From Melghirimyces profundicolus (lineage in GTDB: Bacteria; Bacillota; Bacilli; Thermoactinomycetales; DSM-45169): 64,000 nucleotides of DNA. The stretch's first letter is position 1. Every line of letters starts with the position of its first letter. The stretch is from NCBI RefSeq assembly GCF_003054245.1, contig NZ_QBKR01000003.1, forward strand, positions 62,001-126,000, read 5' to 3'. Positions 4,773-60,273 of this stretch are shown piece by piece. The notes below the pieces were generated by a model. It saw only the letters and a program-made list of their open reading frames with translations, did not search any database and was not told the DNA's origin. A program made the translations under genes and the position numbers.

Positions 4773-5906
4773 TTAGCCGTCGGCTTGCAGGGTGAGCCAT
4801 CGGGTCATCAGGTCGATTGCCACGGGGATGGCGTCTTCGTTGGGGTGGATCCGGGGATGGTGAAGGCCGTGGGGGCTGTCCACACCCAGCCAGAACATGA
4901 AGCCGGGAATCTCCCGAAGAAAGTAACCGAAGTCTTCCCCGGCCATGGATTCCCGGCATTCCATGACACGGACGTTCCCGTGGCGGGCAGCCCAATCCAT
5001 GAATTCCCGGGTGAGGGAAGGGTCGTTTTCCACCTGACAGTAATTGGCCCCCCAATCGATATGCGCCTCGCATTCAAAACCTTCCTCGATTCCGCGAACG
5101 AGGGACCGGATCCTGCTTTTGATCTTCTCCATCGATTCCATGGACAAGGTGCGGATGGTGCCTTCCAGTCGGGCGTTGCCCGGAATGATATTTTGTTTGG
5201 TGCCGATGGTCACTTTTCCCAGGGTGAGGATGGCGGAGTCCAAGGGATCGATGTTGCGTGAAATGATGGTCTGGAGCTGCATCGCCAGTTGACTGCCGGC
5301 GATCACCATGTCGTTGGACCGGTGGGGGAGGGAGGCATGGCCGTCCGTTCCCACCAGGTCGATAAACAGTTCCGAGGTGTTGGCAAAGAGGATTCCCGGG
5401 CGGGTGGCGATGGTTCCGACGGGATAATCGGGGCCGATGTGGAGGGCGAAGAGGCAGTCGGGACGCCAGGATCGGAACTCTTCGCTCTCCATCATGGGCA
5501 GAGCCCCTCCCGGTCCTTCCTCCGCCGGTTGGAAAAGGAACAGGAGGTCATCCCGCACCGGCCGTTCCGCGAAATGGGTCAGAATCCCCAAGGCGATCGC
5601 CATGTGCAGATCATGTCCACAGGCGTGCATCTGACCGGGGTGTTCGGACGTAAATTCAACCCCCGTTTCCTCATGGATCGGCAAACCGTCCATATCCGTC
5701 CGGTACCCGATGGTCCGGGTCGGCCGCGTTCCCTTCACCTTGACCAATACTCCGGTTCGCCAGGTTTTCACTTCGAGCCGGTCTTGGGGAAGACGGGATA
5801 AATAGTCCAATATGAACCGCTGCGTTTTAAATTCGGCAAACCCCAGTTCCGGAATCCGGTGAAGTTGTCTTCGGATTTCCACAAAAGGGTGGAGGCACGT
5901 GGTCAT
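4773..5906 (-). CDS. dapL: N-acetyldiaminopimelate deacetylase, M20 family
   Basis: Metal-dependent amidohydrolase (377 aa) that removes the acetyl group from N-acetyl-LL-diaminopimelate, the last step of the acetylase branch of DAP/lysine and peptidoglycan synthesis. It is close to Bacillus YkuR over its full length. Metal and catalytic motifs of M20 enzymes are visible: [10 protein letters not shown] near residues 93-102, [11 protein letters not shown] near 125-135, and [11 protein letters not shown] near 320. It is the third gene of a minus-strand operon, starting 12 bases after the aminotransferase gene. A partial decayed copy of its 3' end lies at 1601-1807. Function is supported by the neighbouring dapH. 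Confidence 0.93.
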
Positions 5907-10975: not shown

Positions 10976-12580
10976 GTGAACACAGAGATTTCCTCACTCC
11001 CCAAAGATGTGGAAGTGAAGGGGGAGATAACCGGGGAATTTGGAGAAATCCTGACTCCCGAGGCCTTGGAATTCGTGGCAAAACTGGCACGGAATTTTAC
11101 CGATGACCGGGACCGTCTGTTGCATAACAGGGAACGGCGCCAAAAGGAGATCGATGAGGGTCGGGGGCCCGGGTTTCGGAAGGAGACCGAAGAGATCCGG
11201 AACCGTTCCTGGTCCATCGATCCGGTTCCCTACGACCTTCGGGACCGGAGGGTGGAGATCACCGGTCCCGCTTCCGACCGGAAGATGGTGATCAACGCCC
11301 TCAACTCCGGGGCGAAGGTGTTCATGGCGGACTTTGAGGATGCCAACTCTCCCACTTGGGAGAACTGCATCCAGGGTCAGATCAACATGCGCGATGCCGT
11401 CAACGGGACGATCCGTTTCATCAACCCCGACGGGAAGCGTTACCAACTGAAGGAGAAACCGGCGGTACTCCTCATCCGTCCGAGGGGCTGGCACCTGGAT
11501 GAAAAGCACGTCACGGTGGACGGCCGACCCGTTCCCGGCGGCCTTTTCGACTTCGGACTGTACTTTTTCCATAACGCCAAACCCCTGCTGAAAAAAGGAT
11601 CCGGCCCTTATTTTTATCTTCCGAAGCTGGAAAATCACTTGGAAGCCCGCCTGTGGAACGATGTATTTCTCTTCGCCCAGAAGGAGCTGAAGATCGCTCC
11701 GGGCACCATCAAGGCGACCGTCCTGATCGAAACGATCACCGCCGCCTTTGAGATGGATGAAATCCTCTACGAACTGAAGGAACACTCCGCGGGGCTCAAC
11801 TGCGGGCGTTGGGATTACATCTTCAGCTGCATCAAGCGCTTCCGTAACCGTCCGGAAGTGATTCTTCCGGACCGGTCCCTGGTGACGATGACGGTTCCCT
11901 TCATGCGGGCCTACACCCTGCTGGCGGTCCAAACGTGCCACAAACGGAACGCCCACTGCATCGGAGGGATGGCGGCCCAGATTCCGGTCCGGAACGACCC
12001 TGAAGCCAACGAAGCCGCTCTCTCCAAGGTTCGGGCTGATAAGGAACGGGAGGCCCTCGACGGTCATGACGGCACTTGGGTGGCCCATCCGGCGTTGGTG
12101 CCTGTCGCCAAAGAAGTCTTTGACAAACACATGCTTCATCCGAACCAGATCGACAAGAAGCGGGGAGACGTGGAGGTCACCGCAAAGGATCTGTGCCAGG
12201 TTCCCGAGGGTCCCATCACGGAAGAGGGATTGCGCCAAAACGTGAGTGTGGGGATCCAATACATGGAAGCCTGGCTCCGGGGTTACGGGGCGGTGGGTAT
12301 CAACCACCTGATGGAAGACGCGGCCACGGCCGAAATCTCCCGGGCCCAGGTGTGGCAGTGGATCCGCCACCCCAAGGGGGTGCTGGAAGACGGACGGAGA
12401 GTGACGGTGGACCTTTTCCGCCGCACGGTGGAAGAAGAGTTGGAGAAGATCCGGGAAACGATCGGGGAGGAACGGTTCTCCGCCGGGCGGTTCACGGAGG
12501 CGAAGGATCTTTTCGATGCGCTGACCGTCTCCGATGAATTCGTGGAGTTTCTCACCCTGCCGGGATATGAGCGGCTCTGA
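10976..12580 (+). CDS. aceB: Malate synthase A
   Basis: Condenses glyoxylate with acetyl-CoA to malate, the second step of the glyoxylate shunt, which allows growth on acetate or fatty acids. 534 aa is the normal length of the A isoform. The family signature [16 protein letters not shown] is present near residue 270. The GTG start at 10976 is chosen for the AAAGGAGTG site at 10961-10969. It is followed 48 bases later by isocitrate lyase in the same transcription unit, and a clear promoter lies upstream. Confidence 0.97.
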
Positions 12581-12628
12581 AGCCGCCGCCCCATACATTT
12601 CAAATAAAGATTAAAGGAGAGGTTGAAA

Positions 12629-13918
12629 ATGACCACCATCCAAGAAGAAGCGAAAAAGCTGCGGGAATCCTGGGAGAACGACTCCCGCTGGCAAGGTATC
12701 GAGCGCCCGTACAGCGCCGAAGAGGTACTGAAACTCCGCGGTTCGATCCACATCGAGCATACGTTGGCCCGCCGGGGTGCAGAACGGCTGTGGAAGTTAC
12801 TTCAGGAGGAGCACCATGTCAAAGCCCTCGGAGCCCTGACCGGAAACCAGGCGGTTCAGCAAGTCAAAGCCGGTTTGAAAGCGATTTATCTCTCCGGGTG
12901 GCAAGTGGCCGCCGACGCCAACCTCGCCGGGCAGATGTACCCGGATCAGAGCCTCTACCCGGCCAACAGCGTTCCCCATGTCGTGAAGCGGATCAACCAG
13001 GCGCTTCAGCGGGCAGACCAGATCGAGCACGCGGAAGGAGGAGCCCAACGGGACTGGTTTGCCCCCATCGTGGCCGATGCGGAAGCCGGCTTCGGCGGCC
13101 CCCTGAACGTCTTTGAACTGATGAAAGCGATGATCGAAGCCGGAGCGGCCGGGGTTCACTTCGAGGATCAGTTGGCCTCCGAGAAAAAATGCGGCCACCT
13201 CGGCGGGAAAGTGTTGATTCCGACTTCCCAGGCGGTGCGCAACCTCATTTCCGCCCGTCTGGCCGCCGATGTGATGGGAGTGCCCACGATCCTGGTGGCC
13301 CGCACGGACGCCAACGCGGCAGAATTGATCACCAGTGACGTCGATCCATCGGATCACCGGTTCCTCACCGGCGAGCGGACAACGGAAGGGTTCCACCGTC
13401 AGCGCTGCGGTCTGGAGACCGCCATCGCCCGGGGCCTGGCCTACGCTCCCTACGCTGACTTGATCTGGTGTGAGACCTCCACTCCGGACCTGGAGGAAGC
13501 CCGGCGGTTCGCCGAAGCCATCCATGAGCGATTCCCGGGTAAAATGCTGGCTTACAACTGCTCCCCCTCCTTCAATTGGAAAAAACACCTGGACGACGAT
13601 ACCATTGCCCGATTCCAGGACGAACTGGGCGAGATGGGGTACAAATTCCAGTTCATCACCCTGGCCGGCTTCCATTCCCTCAACAACAGCATGTTCGAAC
13701 TGGCCAACGGTTACAGGGAAACGGGGATGGCTGCCTACTCCCAGCTCCAGGAGCGGGAATTTGCCAACGAAGTTCACGGATACAGCGCCACCCGCCACCA
13801 GCGGGAGGTGGGGACCGGATACTTCGATGCCGTCTCCATGACCATCACCAGTGGCTCCTCTTCCACCACCGCCCTCAAAGGATCCACGGAAGAAGCGCAG
13901 TTCACCGCCGCAAAATAA
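12629..13918 (+). CDS. aceA: Isocitrate lyase
   Basis: Splits isocitrate into glyoxylate and succinate, the first step of the glyoxylate shunt (429 aa, cytoplasmic). The catalytic Cys is in the KKCGHLGGK loop near residue 190, and the ligand segments WQVAADAN and [10 protein letters not shown] are present. The ATG at 12629 is used because AAAGGAGAGG lies 6-7 bases upstream; an in-frame TTG two codons earlier would sit too close to that site. Together with aceB it forms a complete shunt operon. A hairpin terminator closes the unit. Confidence 0.97.
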
Positions 13919-20529: not shown

Positions 20530-21582
20530 TTGGAAAAGGACCAATGGTTGAAGGGATTGATGGAGATCCCGGTCACGGATGAAAAGGCGGAAAAAGAAGC
20601 CCGGAATCATATGGATCAGTTGACCAAACCCCTGGGCGCCCTGGGGGATCTGGAAGAGATTGTGATCCGGCTGGCGGGGATCACGGGTGAAACCGTTCCG
20701 GACATCGAACGGAAAGGGGTGGCGGTCTTCTGCGGCGATCACGGAGTGACCGAAGAAGGGGTCAGCGCCTATCCCGCCGAGGTGACGGGTCTCATGATCG
20801 GGAACTTCAGCCGCGGGAAAGCGGCGGTCACCGTGCTGGCCCGCCGCTTCGGTGCGGAAGTGTCGGTGGTGGATGTGGGAAGCCGCCTGGAACCCCTGCC
20901 GGAAGGCGTCCTGGACCGGAAAGTCCGCTTCGGCACCGCCAATATGGCCCGGGGACCCGCCATGACAAGGGAGGAAACTTTGAAAGCTCTCCGGGTGGGG
21001 GCGGACCTGGCCCTTCAGTGGAAAGAGAATGGAATTCAGTTGGCGGCAGTGGGCGAGATGGGTATCGGGAACACCACCTCCGCCTCAGCGGTCGCCGCGG
21101 TTCTCACGGGGAAACCGGTCCGTGAACTGACCGGCCGGGGAACCGGGCTGGATGATGACGGCCTGGAGCGAAAGCGGGAGGTGATCACCCGCAGCCTGGA
21201 AGTGAACCGCCCCGATCCGGCGGACCCGCTGGATGGGTTGGCCAAGGTGGGTGGACTGGAAATCGCGGCCATGACGGGATTCATCCTGGGGGCGGCACGT
21301 CATCGGCTGCCGGTGGTGGTGGACGGTTTGATCTCCACGGTGGCTGCGCTGGCCGCGGTCCGACTGGCTCCCGGTGTTCGTGCCTGTTTGTTTGCCTCCC
21401 ATCGGTCTGCGGAACCCGCCCACGGGGTCCTGTTGGAGGACCTCGGGTTGAAGCCCTTGATCACGGCCGGCATGCGGCTGGGGGAAGGGAGCGGAGCCGT
21501 TCTCGCTTTTCCCCTTTTCGACGGGGCAGTGACGACGGCGAAGGAAATGGCCACGTTTTCGGAACTGGGGCTGAATGGATAA
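20530..21582 (+). CDS. cobT: Nicotinate-nucleotide:dimethylbenzimidazole phosphoribosyltransferase
   Basis: Makes alpha-ribazole phosphate from nicotinate mononucleotide and dimethylbenzimidazole for the lower ligand loop of cobalamin (350 aa). Family segments are present: QLTKPLGALGDLEE near residue 30, FCGDHGVTEEGVSAYP near 65, and GEMGIGNTTSASAV near 175. The catalytic Glu lies near the C-terminus in FPLFDGAVTTAKEM context. The TTG at 20530 is preferred (GGGAG 6 bases upstream); the ATG at 20491 overlaps a TACAAT -10. It lies upstream of the cobalamin riboswitch, so it is not under that switch. Confidence 0.93.
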   Translation: MEKDQWLKGLMEIPVTDEKAEKEARNHMDQLTKPLGALGDLEEIVIRLAGITGETVPDIERKGVAVFCGDHGVTEEGVSAYPAEVTGLMIGNFSRGKAAVTVLARRFGAEVSVVDVGSRLEPLPEGVLDRKVRFGTANMARGPAMTREETLKALRVGADLALQWKENGIQLAAVGEMGIGNTTSASAVAAVLTGKPVRELTGRGTGLDDDGLERKREVITRSLEVNRPDPADPLDGLAKVGGLEIAAMTGFILGAARHRLPVVVDGLISTVAALAAVRLAPGVRACLFASHRSAEPAHGVLLEDLGLKPLITAGMRLGEGSGAVLAFPLFDGAVTTAKEMATFSELGLNG

Positions 21583-21599
21583 CGGAACCAAGGGGAAAA

Positions 21600-21765
21600 G
21601 GCGGGGCGAGTCTTTCGCCCCCGCAAGAGGGAAGCCGGTGTAAATCCGGCGCGGTCCCGCCACTGTGACCGGGGAGCGGCAAGCCGGGCCACTGTCCGTC
21701 AGGATGGGAAGGCCGGGCGAACGGAGCCGCGGGGATCCGGGAGCCAGGAGACCTGCCTTTTCCGA
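21600..21765 (+). ncRNA. Cobalamin riboswitch aptamer
   Basis: Contains the B12-box core motifs in order: GAAGCCGGTGTAAATCCGGC (about 21631-21650), GCGGTCCCGCCACTGTGA (about 21651-21668) and GAGCCAGGAGACCTGCC (about 21741-21757). It precedes the cobD-cbiB operon and should lower its expression when adenosylcobalamin is plentiful. Confidence 0.96.
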
Positions 21766-21841
21766 CAACACCGACGATCCGCGCGGAAGGGGAGGTGTTC
21801 GGCAGGACGGGGTCCCGAGGATGGGGTTTCCCCGTTGCTGG

Positions 21842-26621: not shown

Positions 26622-26972
26622 GGAAGGCGAGCTTGTGCTCTGTGAGTGCATAGCGAGACCGGGGAGAGAGCGAACCAAGAAGCGTTGTGATTGATGGTCA
26701 GGCTCAGAAGAAGGGAAGCGTTTACCCGAAACAGCGACTTTGCTGTCCTGCCCAGCGGAGAATCAGCCAGCAAGGGCGTTCAGGGGCAAAGGCTTCTCTG
26801 TGTTGCATCCGCAGGCGTTTGCCCCTGCCCGCAGCAGGAAGATTCGGAGCGGACAGTGCCTACATCCCTGCAGGACAGAAACCGGAGCGGCTTCGGGTAA
26901 ATGCCGCCGCTTACTTTTTCACAATACTTCTGCGCGAGACTTGTGCTCTGTCATACAACCGGAGCGCGGCAA
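26622..26972 (+). repeat. Dispersed nested-inverted-repeat element, copy B (near-complete)
   Basis: Outer arms 26677-26690 and 26919-26931 (AGCGTTGTGA type / TCACAATACTTCT). Second pair 26718-26730 / 26892-26904 (GCGTTTACCCGAA / TTCGGGTAAATGC). Third pair 26742-26751 / 26870-26878 (GCTGTCCTGC / GCAGGACAG). An inner pair lies at about 26781-26790 / 26818-26827. It is flanked on both sides by the accessory motif GACTTGTGCTCTGT. It holds no credible gene. Confidence 0.9.
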
Positions 26973-42209: not shown

Positions 42210-42345
42210 CCGGCAACCCCCGCTTTCTCTTTGTCATATGGCCGCTTCCGTATCCATCGTACCCCTTTTTCCCCCTTTGGCAAAGGTTTTACTGGAAGAA
42301 ATGCGTTTGCCGCCCGGCGGGGCTTATGATATATTGGGTTCAACA

Positions 42346-42442
42346 CGACAATGGGGAGCCGGGGAAACCGGCTGAGAGGGTGCTGGATCCCGCACCGACC
42401 CGCTGAACCTGATCTGGATGATACCAGCGTAGGGAACATACG
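42346..42442 (+). ncRNA. TPP riboswitch (THI element)
   Basis: Conserved motifs in order: GGGGAGCC, CTGAGAGGGTG, GACCCGCTGAACCTGATCTG and the 3' core ATACCAGCGTAGGGAA. It senses thiamine pyrophosphate and controls the uptake operon that follows. Confidence 0.97.
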
Positions 42443-42489
42443 GAAAAAGCGGCCCATAAGGGCCTGCAGGCAGGTACGTATGGAAGCTC

Positions 42490-56009: not shown

Positions 56010-56047
56010 TTAATGAATGCTGAACAAACGCATCATCCTGCTGTTCA

Positions 56048-56126
56048 TGCGCGACTTGTGCTCTGTGAGAAAAAGCCGGAGCGGCGTTGGTTAAATGCTG
56101 CCGCTCACTTTTTCACAACGCTTCTG
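56048..56126 (+). repeat. Dispersed nested-inverted-repeat element, copy E (3' part)
   Basis: Accessory motif CGCGACTTGTGCTCTGTGAG, then GCCGGAGCGGCGTTGGTTAAATGC and the outer arm TTTTTCACAACGCTTCT. The 5' arm is missing. Confidence 0.85.
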
Positions 56127-56700: not shown

Positions 56701-56907
56701 CGGTTGCCGCTAAGCAAAGGTTTCGACAAAAATGACAGCCCGGCCGTCCCGGGTGACACTGCGGCTGACAGACAAACCGATTCATCGGCGGAAGTCGGTT
56801 TTTTGTCGCTCCTTCATGCGGGTTCCCCACCGGGAATAAGCTGATGATTGACGGGTGTCCTTTCAGGGACTATACTTCTCCTGCGTAGAAGTGAACGGGA
56901 GGGAACG

Positions 56908-58065
56908 ATGATGAGTGAAACGGAAGTCGGCAAGAGAGCGGAAAAAACCCCCCTTTCCCCGGCATGGGATCCGTGGGACCCGTGGTACACCCGGAGCCGA
57001 AAAGGTCGGCATGAACTGACGGGCGTGGAGTTCACCGTCACCCAGCTCTGCAACCTTCGTTGTGAACACTGTGCCGTCGGGGAGGCGTTGGTGAAGGAGG
57101 AAGGGATCCCGCTTCCGGCCGATCAGCTGATCCGGAGACTCGAGGAAGTGGAGAACCTGCAGACCCTCAGCATTACCGGCGGGGAGCCGGTATTGAGTCC
57201 CCGGATCGTGAAAGAGACGATCCGGCCTTTGCTCCGGTATGCCCGGGACCGGGGGGTGTACACCCAACTCAACTCCAACCTGACCCTCCCGTTGTCCCGG
57301 TACGAAGATTGGGTCGCCGACGTGGACGTTTTACATATCTCCTACAATTACCGGGATGAAGCGGACTTTCACCGGATCGCCTTTGAAAAATACGGGCGTG
57401 AGGTGACACCGAAGGCCGCGGATAAGTTATTCAGACAGATGGTGGAGAACGCGAAGGCCCTCTCCGACGCCGGGGTGTTCGTTTCCGCCGAGACCCTGTT
57501 AAGCCCTTTCACCTCCCCTCATATCGATCGGATTCACCGGGATGTGGCCGGGATGGGGTGTCGCCGGCATGAAGTCCACCCCCTCTATCCCAGTGATTTC
57601 GCCAGGGGAATGGAGCTGATCGATCTGGAGACGTTCCGGGAAACCGTGATCCGTCTCCTGGATTGGAGGGATCCGGGGGTTTGGATCCTGTTCGGAACCC
57701 TCCCCTTTTATCCTTGCAGTGAAGAGGAAGCGGACAGGGATCTGTGGCTGCGCCTTCACCGGGAGGAAAACGTCACTGTCCGGCATGATCCCGATGGCAG
57801 GAACCGGCTCAACGTCCATGCCTTCACCGGGGATGTGATCGTAACCGACTTCGGGGACGTCCCGCCCCTCGGCAACATTTATTCGGACCGGCTGGAGGAG
57901 GTCTTCAACCGCTGGCTGAAACACCCTTTGGCTCGCCGGCACCACTGTTATTGTCCTGAAGCCCGTTGCACCGGCCCCAATATCCTCGTGGCCGATGCTT
58001 ATTATTCCGGAGTGGATTTTCAAAAACGAAAAGCCCTCGTTTCGCTGGACGGGGATCCGGATTGA
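56908..58065 (+). CDS. yfkAB: Radical SAM / CxCxxxxC motif protein YfkAB
   Basis: A 385-aa radical SAM enzyme. The [4Fe-4S]-SAM motif is CNLRCEHC (three Cys in CxxxCxxC) near residue 50, and the SAM-binding GGEP segment is in SITGGEPVL near 90. The C-terminal CYCPEARC near 350 fits the CxCxxxxC motif that defines YfkAB and may hold a second cluster. The reaction is unknown. The ATG at 56908 follows GGGAGGG; the next codon is also ATG. In Bacillus it is one gene as here. Confidence 0.92.
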   Translation: MMSETEVGKRAEKTPLSPAWDPWDPWYTRSRKGRHELTGVEFTVTQLCNLRCEHCAVGEALVKEEGIPLPADQLIRRLEEVENLQTLSITGGEPVLSPRIVKETIRPLLRYARDRGVYTQLNSNLTLPLSRYEDWVADVDVLHISYNYRDEADFHRIAFEKYGREVTPKAADKLFRQMVENAKALSDAGVFVSAETLLSPFTSPHIDRIHRDVAGMGCRRHEVHPLYPSDFARGMELIDLETFRETVIRLLDWRDPGVWILFGTLPFYPCSEEEADRDLWLRLHREENVTVRHDPDGRNRLNVHAFTGDVIVTDFGDVPPLGNIYSDRLEEVFNRWLKHPLARRHHCYCPEARCTGPNILVADAYYSGVDFQKRKALVSLDGDPD

Positions 58066-58173
58066 AACCGGAGGGCCGGGTGACCGGATTCCCGGCTTTT
58101 TTTTGGATGGATCAACGCGCGTATCCATTGTTTCGTACGGCCGGGAATCGATGATCGAAATATGGATTTTGAT

Positions 58174-58202
58174 AAAAAAACCCCACGGTCGTGTCCATGG
58201 GG
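58174..58202 (-). terminator. Terminator of SR1P gene
   Basis: An 8-bp stem (58181-58188 / 58195-58202), read on the minus strand, is followed by seven Ts, 20 bases past the stop. Confidence 0.9.
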
Positions 58203-58221
58203 CACTCTCTATGCAATTTCG

Positions 58222-58353
58222 TCAATTGGCGGAGTGATTTTTTTCTGCCTGTAGTTCGTGACAATCGCAACAAGTGCCGTAAAGGGTACCATTTTTCTCC
58301 CCATCGACGTAATCAATAACCGTGTCGCAGGTTTGGCAGACAAGGGCCTCCAT
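58222..58353 (-). CDS. SR1P family small peptide (GapA-binding), on a probable dual-function RNA
   Basis: 43 aa. The pattern VCQTCDTVIDY and GTLYGTCC matches Bacillus SR1P (VCQxC, then Glu-Lys, then TLYGTCC), the peptide encoded by the regulatory RNA SR1 that binds glyceraldehyde-3-phosphate dehydrogenase GapA. AAAGGGGGAT precedes the ATG by 5 bases. Promoter, cre-like site and terminator define a transcript of about 220 bases. Whether the RNA also base-pairs with targets, as SR1 does with ahrC mRNA, is not visible. Confidence 0.85.
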   Translation of the reverse strand: MEALVCQTCDTVIDYVDGEKNGTLYGTCCDCHELQAEKNHSAN

Positions 58354-58371
58354 GGATGATCCCCCTTTACA

Positions 58372-58430
58372 AGTAAGCGCTTTAATAAATGTGTCACATT
58401 AATATTATTATGTTATACAGTTTACGTCAA
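58372..58430 (-). promoter_or_regulatory. Promoter and cre-like site of the SR1P RNA
   Basis: On the minus strand, -35 TTGACG (58425-58430), a 17-base spacer and -10 TAATAT (58402-58407). Just downstream lies TTAAAGCGCTTACT (58372-58385), which fits the cre consensus apart from two bases. This fits sugar-repressed expression, as known for SR1 (CcpN and CcpA). Confidence 0.75.
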
Positions 58431-58555: not shown

Positions 58556-59005
58556 TTATCTCCGGTAAGGATAATAAGGCGGTCGGTACGGCGGGTAGTA
58601 AGGCGGCCGGTAAGGCGGGTAATATGGACGACGGTACGGCGGGTAGTAAGGTGGCCGATAGTAGGGCGGATAATAAGGCGGATACCGCCGGCGCTGCTCG
58701 GTGTCGAGGTCCTCCTCCTCTTCGGGGTACGATGTGGTCTGGCTGTAGGGATCCGGGGAAAAACCGTAGGGATCCGGGGAAAAACCGTAGGGGTCCGGCC
58801 AGCCGTAGGCTGCCTGCTGTGGATCAAAACCTTCCTGGGCCGGTTGCCAGGGATCCTGACCGAACCCGTACTGACTCACCGTGGGGTGCGCCCAATCGTA
58901 TCCGTAGGGATAAGGAGCCCCGTAATCCGGTTGGGCTTCCTGCTCTTGTCCGGAAGAGCGGGCTTCCGGTTGGTTTTCCCGTTCCTTTCGTTCCTGATCG
59001 GACAA
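58556..59005 (-). CDS. Pro/Tyr-rich repeat protein, spore-coat-like
   Basis: 149 aa. The N-terminal third is polar and Gln/Glu-rich. The middle has a direct repeat of DPYGFSPDPYGFSPDPY type. The C-terminal 45 residues are built of PPYYPPYR-type repeats ending in YPYRR. No signal peptide. The TTG start follows AAAGGAGGAGAGGAAGG. About 45 bases upstream, CATACATT matches the -10 of sporulation sigma factors E/K, so a mother-cell coat protein is a reasonable guess. Tyr-rich tails can be cross-linked in coats. Confidence 0.75.
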   Translation of the reverse strand: MSDQERKERENQPEARSSGQEQEAQPDYGAPYPYGYDWAHPTVSQYGFGQDPWQPAQEGFDPQQAAYGWPDPYGFSPDPYGFSPDPYSQTTSYPEEEEDLDTEQRRRYPPYYPPYYRPPYYPPYRRPYYPPYRPPYYPPYRPPYYPYRR

Positions 59006-59214: not shown

Positions 59215-59907
59215 GTGATCGTCAGGGAAGAGAAAGACCGGTACATCCTGATCCGTCAGCATGACCACGGACGGGTCTCCGGGGATATTGCAGACCATTG
59301 GAAGGAAACGCCGGACGCGTCCACGCGGACGGCCGTCCGTTATCATGACGTGGGGTGGGAAGAGTTGGACCGATCGGTCCGGTGGAACCCGAAGACCGGC
59401 AAACCGTATTCCTTTGTGGATCATCCGATGGAGGACAAAATACGCGCCTATCATTCGGGAGTGAACCGGGTGGAAGAGATGGACGGGTGGGCCGCCTGTC
59501 TTTGCAGCATGCATTATGTCTCTTTTTTTTCCAAACCCCGGGAAGAAGCGGCCGTCCGGTTCGTCGAAAGGGAAACAGAGCGGCAACGCAGATGGACCGG
59601 CGGGACGGGAGAAGCGGACCGGCGAAAGCTGGAGGAACGTCTGCGCTTTTTGAAGCTGTGCGATGATCTCTCATTGTTTCTCTGTCTCAATTCACCGGGA
59701 AAAAACGAACACCCCTGGTACCGGGCCGGGTTTCGCTCCGGGAGCGAACGCTTCCTTCCGAGGTGGGAAGAAACAGATCTCCTGCGCCTGGAACCCCTGC
59801 CCTTTTTCGTCACCTTTGAAGTGGTCCTTCCGTACCAAGAGATCAGCTTCTCCGGGAAGCCGCTGAAAGAGGGGGTCCACCGGATCCGGGTTGCCGGGGA
59901 GGACTGA
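59215..59907 (+). CDS. DUF3891 family protein
   Basis: A 230-aa protein of the DUF3891 family, of unknown function. Conserved His/Asp-containing segments (RQHDHGRVSGDIADHW, AVRYHDVGWEELD, FVDHPMEDKI) suggest a metal-dependent HD-like hydrolase. The GTG at 59215 follows AAAGGGGTGG by 6 bases. The long frame running back to 58456 is only the complement of the Pro/Tyr-rich gene. Confidence 0.85.
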   Translation: MIVREEKDRYILIRQHDHGRVSGDIADHWKETPDASTRTAVRYHDVGWEELDRSVRWNPKTGKPYSFVDHPMEDKIRAYHSGVNRVEEMDGWAACLCSMHYVSFFSKPREEAAVRFVERETERQRRWTGGTGEADRRKLEERLRFLKLCDDLSLFLCLNSPGKNEHPWYRAGFRSGSERFLPRWEETDLLRLEPLPFFVTFEVVLPYQEISFSGKPLKEGVHRIRVAGED

Positions 59908-60010
59908 GACTCCCATCTTTTCATTCCCATGACCGTTCCCATTGGATATAATGGGAGATGACGCCTTCCGGCCGGTCCCGCCGGGTGATGGAAGGGCCGG
60001 TGAAGCACTA

Positions 60011-60273
60011 AAAGCGTTGTGATTTCATGTTCGTTTCGAGAAAAGGAGAAGCGTTTACCCAAAATAGCGACTTTGCTGTCCTGCCCAGCGGAGCGGACAG
60101 TGCTCTCTGCAGGACAGCATAGCGAGACCGGGGAGAGAGCGACCCAGGCGAGACTTGTGCTCCGTGAGTGCATAGCGAGACCGGGGAGAGAGCGACCCAG
60201 GCGAGACTTGTGCTCTGTGGTACAGCCGGAGCGGCTTGGGTAAATGCTGCCGCCACTTTTTCACAACGCTTCT
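60011..60273 (+). repeat. Dispersed nested-inverted-repeat element, copy C (near-complete)
   Basis: Outer arms 60011-60022 (AAAGCGTTGTGA) and 60261-60273 (TCACAACGCTTCT). Second pair 60051-60060 / 60238-60247 (GCGTTTACCC / GGGTAAATGC). Third pair 60075-60084 / 60109-60118, perfect over 10 bases. It also contains two tandem 53-base units (60118-60170, 60171-60223). Frames here are short and unconvincing. Confidence 0.92.
60118..60223 (+). repeat. Two tandem 53-bp units inside copy C
   Basis: The unit begins CATAGCGAGACCGGGGAGAG and ends CTTGTGCTCYGTG. The two units differ at few positions. One unit also precedes copy B (about 26622-26676). Confidence 0.9.

Follow-up and report, generated by a model that had tools for sequence, protein, structure and literature searches.

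A second SR1P-family gene beside yfkAB in Melghirimyces profundicolus, probably expressed as a CcpN- and CcpA-repressed small mRNA

Homologs of SR1 have been reported in 139 species, all of them in Bacillus and Geobacillus (PMC8501984), and at an identical genomic location (PMC8152036). A unit of about 220 bases beside yfkAB in Melghirimyces profundicolus, which lies in the 64-kb stretch of DNA analysed here (the window), was described in an earlier note as an SR1-type dual-function RNA, that is, one that encodes the peptide SR1P and also base-pairs with ahrC mRNA. This raises the questions of whether the unit belongs to the SR1P family, whether its role would lie in the peptide, in base-pairing or in both, and how it came to stand where it does. 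The features that bear on these questions are the following, in window coordinates:

58222..58353, minus strand: SR1P-family open reading frame of 43 codons plus stop, identified by its PF13790 match and by purifying selection against its paralogue
58425..58430, minus strand: -35 hexamer TTGACG, kept in the order-wide alignment
58402..58407, minus strand: -10 hexamer TAATAT, from the order-wide alignment
58407..58419: CcpN-like operator 1, in the promoter spacer
58388..58400: CcpN-like operator 2, over the transcription start, 19 bp from operator 1
58372..58385, minus strand: cre-like CcpA site TTAAAGCGCTTACT, at about +11 to +24
58361..58368, minus strand: Shine-Dalgarno sequence AAAGGGGG, strong and of the GGGGG type, 7 nt before the ATG
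58173..58203, minus strand: intrinsic terminator, a 9-pair stem with a T run
58173..58395, minus strand: predicted sr1-like transcript of about 221 nt, from promoter, terminator and a sub-threshold RF02376 match
56848..58065, plus strand: neighbour yfkAB (TIGR04478, 550.6 bits), convergent with the sr1 copy
59215..59907, plus strand: neighbouring DUF3891 gene (PF13030 match), start not fixed

The reading frame (58353..58222) encodes MEALVCQTCDTVIDYVDGEKNGTLYGTCCDCHELQAEKNHSAN, with the pattern VCQxC...TLYGTCC, and the peptide matches the Pfam SR1P family PF13790 over residues 2-33 with 43.9 bits (E 2.7e-11) against a cut-off of 26 bits, which bears out the four-cysteine homolog of 43 codons announced earlier. 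Both CxxC pairs (C6, C9, C28, C31) and the TLYG core with L24-Y25-G26 are present, and every position found invariant in a sample of 13 family sequences is kept (M1, C6, C9, I13, K20, L24, Y25, G26, C28, C31). The four-cysteine pattern is likewise intact in 101 of 102 relatives, and a family alignment that breaks this pattern, which the earlier note had named as grounds for giving up the reading, is therefore not what was found. NCBIfam holds no model for the window peptide; the NCBI pipeline names the family elsewhere as ‘GapA-binding peptide SR1P’, and because the family is annotated by name the peptide is already known to annotators.

The peptide gene appears to be a transcription unit of its own, as had been claimed. 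A promoter of the sigma-A type, TTGACG-17-TAATAT, lies at 58430..58402 with a transcription start expected near 58395, and a 70-bp profile built from 30 sr1 promoters of other genera gives this place 65.6 bits, the best unrelated place in the 64 kb reaching 8.8. The Rfam SR1 model RF02376 aligns end to end (58395..58175) and so gives the same ends as the reading from promoter and terminator. Apart from the strong terminator that had been predicted, the folding of the transcript is nothing special (z -0.93).

Two CcpN-like operators accompany this promoter, scored against the consensus TRTGHYATAYW, which was checked against loci of the data set rather than derived from footprints in Thermoactinomycetales. 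Operator 1 reads TATGTTATACA on the plus strand (58409-58419, 11/11) and TATAACATAAT on the minus strand (58417..58407, 9/11), while operator 2 reads TGTGTCACATT on the plus strand (58390-58400, 10/11) and TGTGACACATT on the minus strand (58398..58388, 10/11). A single best match upstream is equalled in 22% of shuffles; the strength of these candidate operators lies in the pair, its spacing and the profile across genera rather than in any one site. The window sr1 promoter is the sole place in the 64 kb at which two CcpN-like sites of at least 10/11 stand 19 bp apart. This spacing, with one site in the spacer and the other over the transcription start, is that of Thermoactinomycetales, whereas in Bacillaceae the pair is 32-33 bp apart. 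In B. subtilis, the sr1 operators bound by CcpN lie upstream of the -35 box and in the spacer, and the cre bound by CcpA lies some 260 bp upstream (PMC8464778). The window copy lacks this arrangement of CcpN operators.

The cre-like site had been placed at about +10 to +23 and is indeed found at 58385..58372, where 9 of 11 informative positions match, a score attained by 3.6% of shuffles of the region. Of 34 loci of the order, 19 have a site of this kind just 3' of the transcription start, as do 12 of 18 Bacillaceae-type loci from other Bacilli, and shuffles yield about one. It is also seen after the start in the B. subtilis group, despite the CcpA site reported far upstream there; one example from the Bacilli sr1 loci (L041) carries the cre-like ATTAAGCGTTTTCA 39 nt before the ATG.

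The partners expected of such a gene are encoded in the same genome. CcpN is 67% identical to the Bacillus protein and its gene lies upstream of a yqfL-type gene. Perfect CcpN-like sites stand before gapB and pckA, the other classical CcpN targets. Membership of the CcpN regulon was judged by two operators at the promoter together with a CcpN gene in the genome, and both are found here at the level of sequence, which makes the window gene a putative member. GapA is 71% identical and keeps Lys332, a position at which GapB has Arg. The genome also has RNase J. The B. subtilis peptide binds GapA near Lys332, a residue whose role is decisive, and strengthens both the binding of GapA to RNase J1 and the activity of RNase J1 (PMC8152036). 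A part of this RNA in switching between glycolysis and gluconeogenesis, offered earlier as plausible, gains strength from the CcpN-like operators, the CcpN gene and the conserved Lys332 of GapA, as far as sequence can speak to it.

The best explanation, which we hold to be quite probable, is that the locus gives rise to a small mRNA, about 221 nt long, which is repressed by CcpN and CcpA and encodes a second SR1P acting via GapA. A selected peptide, a homologous promoter, paired operators, a cre-like site, a Shine-Dalgarno sequence, a terminator and the expected partners can all be read from the DNA; repression, translation and GapA binding of the window SR1P are what we infer. Under glycolytic conditions, CcpN would hold RNA polymerase at the sr1 promoter and CcpA would add to the repression, while under gluconeogenic conditions the RNA would be made and translated. 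SR1P would then bind the C-terminal helix of GapA, which would at that time not be needed for glycolysis, and would raise RNase J1 activity. Given that the operators of the extra and the canonical copy are not identical in detail, the likely contribution of the extra copy is added dosage or a slightly altered response. This account leaves out any antisense role of the ahrC type.

Such a role is the substance of the first alternative, in which the RNA is a full dual-function SR1 that also pairs with the mRNA of ahrC or of another gene and so blocks translation of that mRNA, like its B. subtilis counterpart. The family is homologous, the genome has ahrC, and RF02376 aligns over the whole length, though its 26.6 bits fall short of the gathering score of 45, which is reached by B. 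spizizenii and Geobacillus but by no copy in 10 family genomes. The left terminator arm is where B. subtilis SR1 starts to pair with ahrC (PMC8464778). It is this 3' part that is unconserved between the window copy and any relative and is unrelated to that of B. subtilis SR1: a comparison of 11 RNAs of the family shows conservation at the leader start and in the reading frame but not in the sequence of the 3' UTR and terminator, and no common fold of the 3' part was found. Accessibility-weighted local pairing with ahrC was matched by 40% of shuffled targets, a weak test in that two Bacillus controls were equally without signal; this search took the place of whole-length SR1-ahrC duplex energies, which were discarded as they were swamped by unrealistically long duplexes. 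The base-pairing half of the earlier dual-function claim is not supported, and a full dual-function RNA at this locus is rather unlikely.

The remaining alternatives concern what has become of the peptide since the two copies separated. The genome carries two SR1P genes, one in the window and the other on contig 1 (G000:C1:287474), beside speA and a gene with DUF1054 relatives in Bacillus; these flanks match those in Bacillus, the site reported as identical among SR1 homologs (PMC8152036). This canonical gene has the promoter layout, Shine-Dalgarno sequence and cre-like site of the window copy, and its peptide is 67% identical. The two genes differ at 29 of 93 nt, with 5, 5 and 19 substitutions at the three codon positions, and at 7 of 31 amino acids, where random mutation would give 18 on average; this is the pattern of a peptide under purifying selection. 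The canonical gene differs by 12 nt from that of G008, a member of the same genus, and by 19 nt from that of Kroppenstedtia, and since the 29 differences exceed both, the window gene does not stem from a recent duplication of its paralogue. In a tree built from promoter and reading frame, the canonical copy groups with the G008 gene, while the window copy sits on a long branch (0.44-0.54) and does not clearly join either of these; the sequences are too short to place it, and neither a grouping with the second copy of Marininema halotolerans nor one with the canonical copy is rejected.

The length of that branch would suit a copy that has diverged towards a different partner or task and has stopped acting via GapA, as would its distinct C-terminal tail and the core changes I4L, E11T and T14D against the canonical peptide; with this tail, GapA binding by the window peptide is best called putative. 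Yet all invariant family positions are kept, the changes are mostly synonymous and the regulatory signals are the same as those of the canonical gene, and such a change of function is unlikely. A decaying duplicate without function, which might be suspected as other family members have no SR1P at the yfkAB site and few genomes have a second copy (5 of 144 with SR1P), is highly improbable given an open frame, kept signals and a third-position bias over the 29/93 differences that a pseudogene of such age would lose.

The location of the window gene is not the canonical one. The gene is next door to yfkAB, as had been noted; aceB and aceA, said to be in the same region, are within the window but at 10976-13918, and the phrase is loose for a distance of about 44 kb. 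In four relatives that were checked (G001, G002, G006, G007), yfkAB and the DUF3891 gene adjoin without SR1P between them, and the gap holds neither an SR1P remnant nor an sr1-type promoter. The simplest reading is that the window copy was gained at the yfkAB site in the lineage of the window. By position, the window gene is taken as a paralogue off the canonical site and the copy at the speA site as the orthologue. A block of Marininema halotolerans (G006) is syntenic with the window over about 70 kb (-17 kb to 52 kb, G006:C12). The second SR1P gene of that species (L012, G006:C12:84736) is off-site too and inside this block, where aceA is 4 kb and yfkAB 41 kb away, so that its exact position differs. 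For these two extra copies, a common origin followed by local movement, which the tree does not reject (AU p 0.37), and two independent events are both possible.

Several further observations were made around these loci. A dispersed repeat family in direct orientation flanks both the window copy and the canonical sr1 locus, with copies in the window at 56046-56125, 60009-60273 and 26625-26966 and elsewhere at 5020-5217 and 8818-9128 of L047, 18386-18698 of L181 and 1938-2241 of L062; with about one copy per 15-20 kb this flanking may be chance, yet such repeats provide a way for genes to move. In Seinonella peptonophila (L114), yfkAB adjoins the canonical sr1 gene, but the two are divergent there and convergent in the window. 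Directly upstream of the window sr1 copy lies a minus-strand reading frame (58556-59005) with a Pro/Tyr-rich tail and YPPYYRPPYYPPYRRP repeats, for which there is no Pfam match. The window also holds a cobalamin riboswitch (21582-21774) and a TPP riboswitch (42342-42452).

The AlphaFold2 model of SR1P consists of three strands and a helix (mean pLDDT 81.8). Comparison with solved structures gave no significant fold (best E 0.24), the nearest being the Zn(Cys)4 parts of PerR/Fur/Zur proteins and ribosomal proteins, and solved sequences were also searched by profile, again with nothing significant (best E 0.09; RPB9 at E 0.2). Because of the two CxxC pairs and the likeness to these nearest folds, a Zn(Cys)4 mini-domain at residues 6-31 is plausible as a modelled feature; a literature search for SR1P together with zinc returned no paper on zinc in SR1P. 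A bolder picture, possible but doubtful, is a system of two SR1P genes, the extra one derived from a dual-function RNA but reduced to the peptide, freed from base-pairing and set to its own operator strength; SR1P would in this picture be a minimal Zn(Cys)4 domain, whose contact with GapA could be gated by zinc or redox state.

With SR1P/SR1 of B. subtilis (PF13790, RF02376), the window copy has in common the peptide family with its four cysteines, a sigma-A promoter with CcpN-like and cre-like sites, the size of the RNA, the one-gene unit and its own terminator; it differs in standing beside yfkAB as a second copy rather than beside speA. It is an extra member of the known SR1P family and not a new kind of system. 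Of 42 genomes of the order, 39 carry SR1P. A class-wide sample of 399 genomes gave 144 with the family, which cover 81 of 146 sampled genera, and the phylum sample gave only 8 of 398. Among genomes with multiple matches, G581 has three SR1P genes, and G534 and G036 have two each, one of those in G036 being partial. No phage carriage of SR1P was found, and a plasmid search gave one match, a pdh-speA stretch on an 807-kb B. velezensis record. A literature search found no paper linking Thermoactinomycetaceae with SR1P.

Published searches place SR1 in Bacillus and Geobacillus alone and at one location, whereas here the family is far wider in the class Bacilli, and SR1P can duplicate and move together with its regulatory region. 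The conservation of the peptide and the operators, but not of the 3' part, suggests that what has been widely kept is the peptide rather than the antisense function. The two copies in one genome are a natural test of this peptide-first view.
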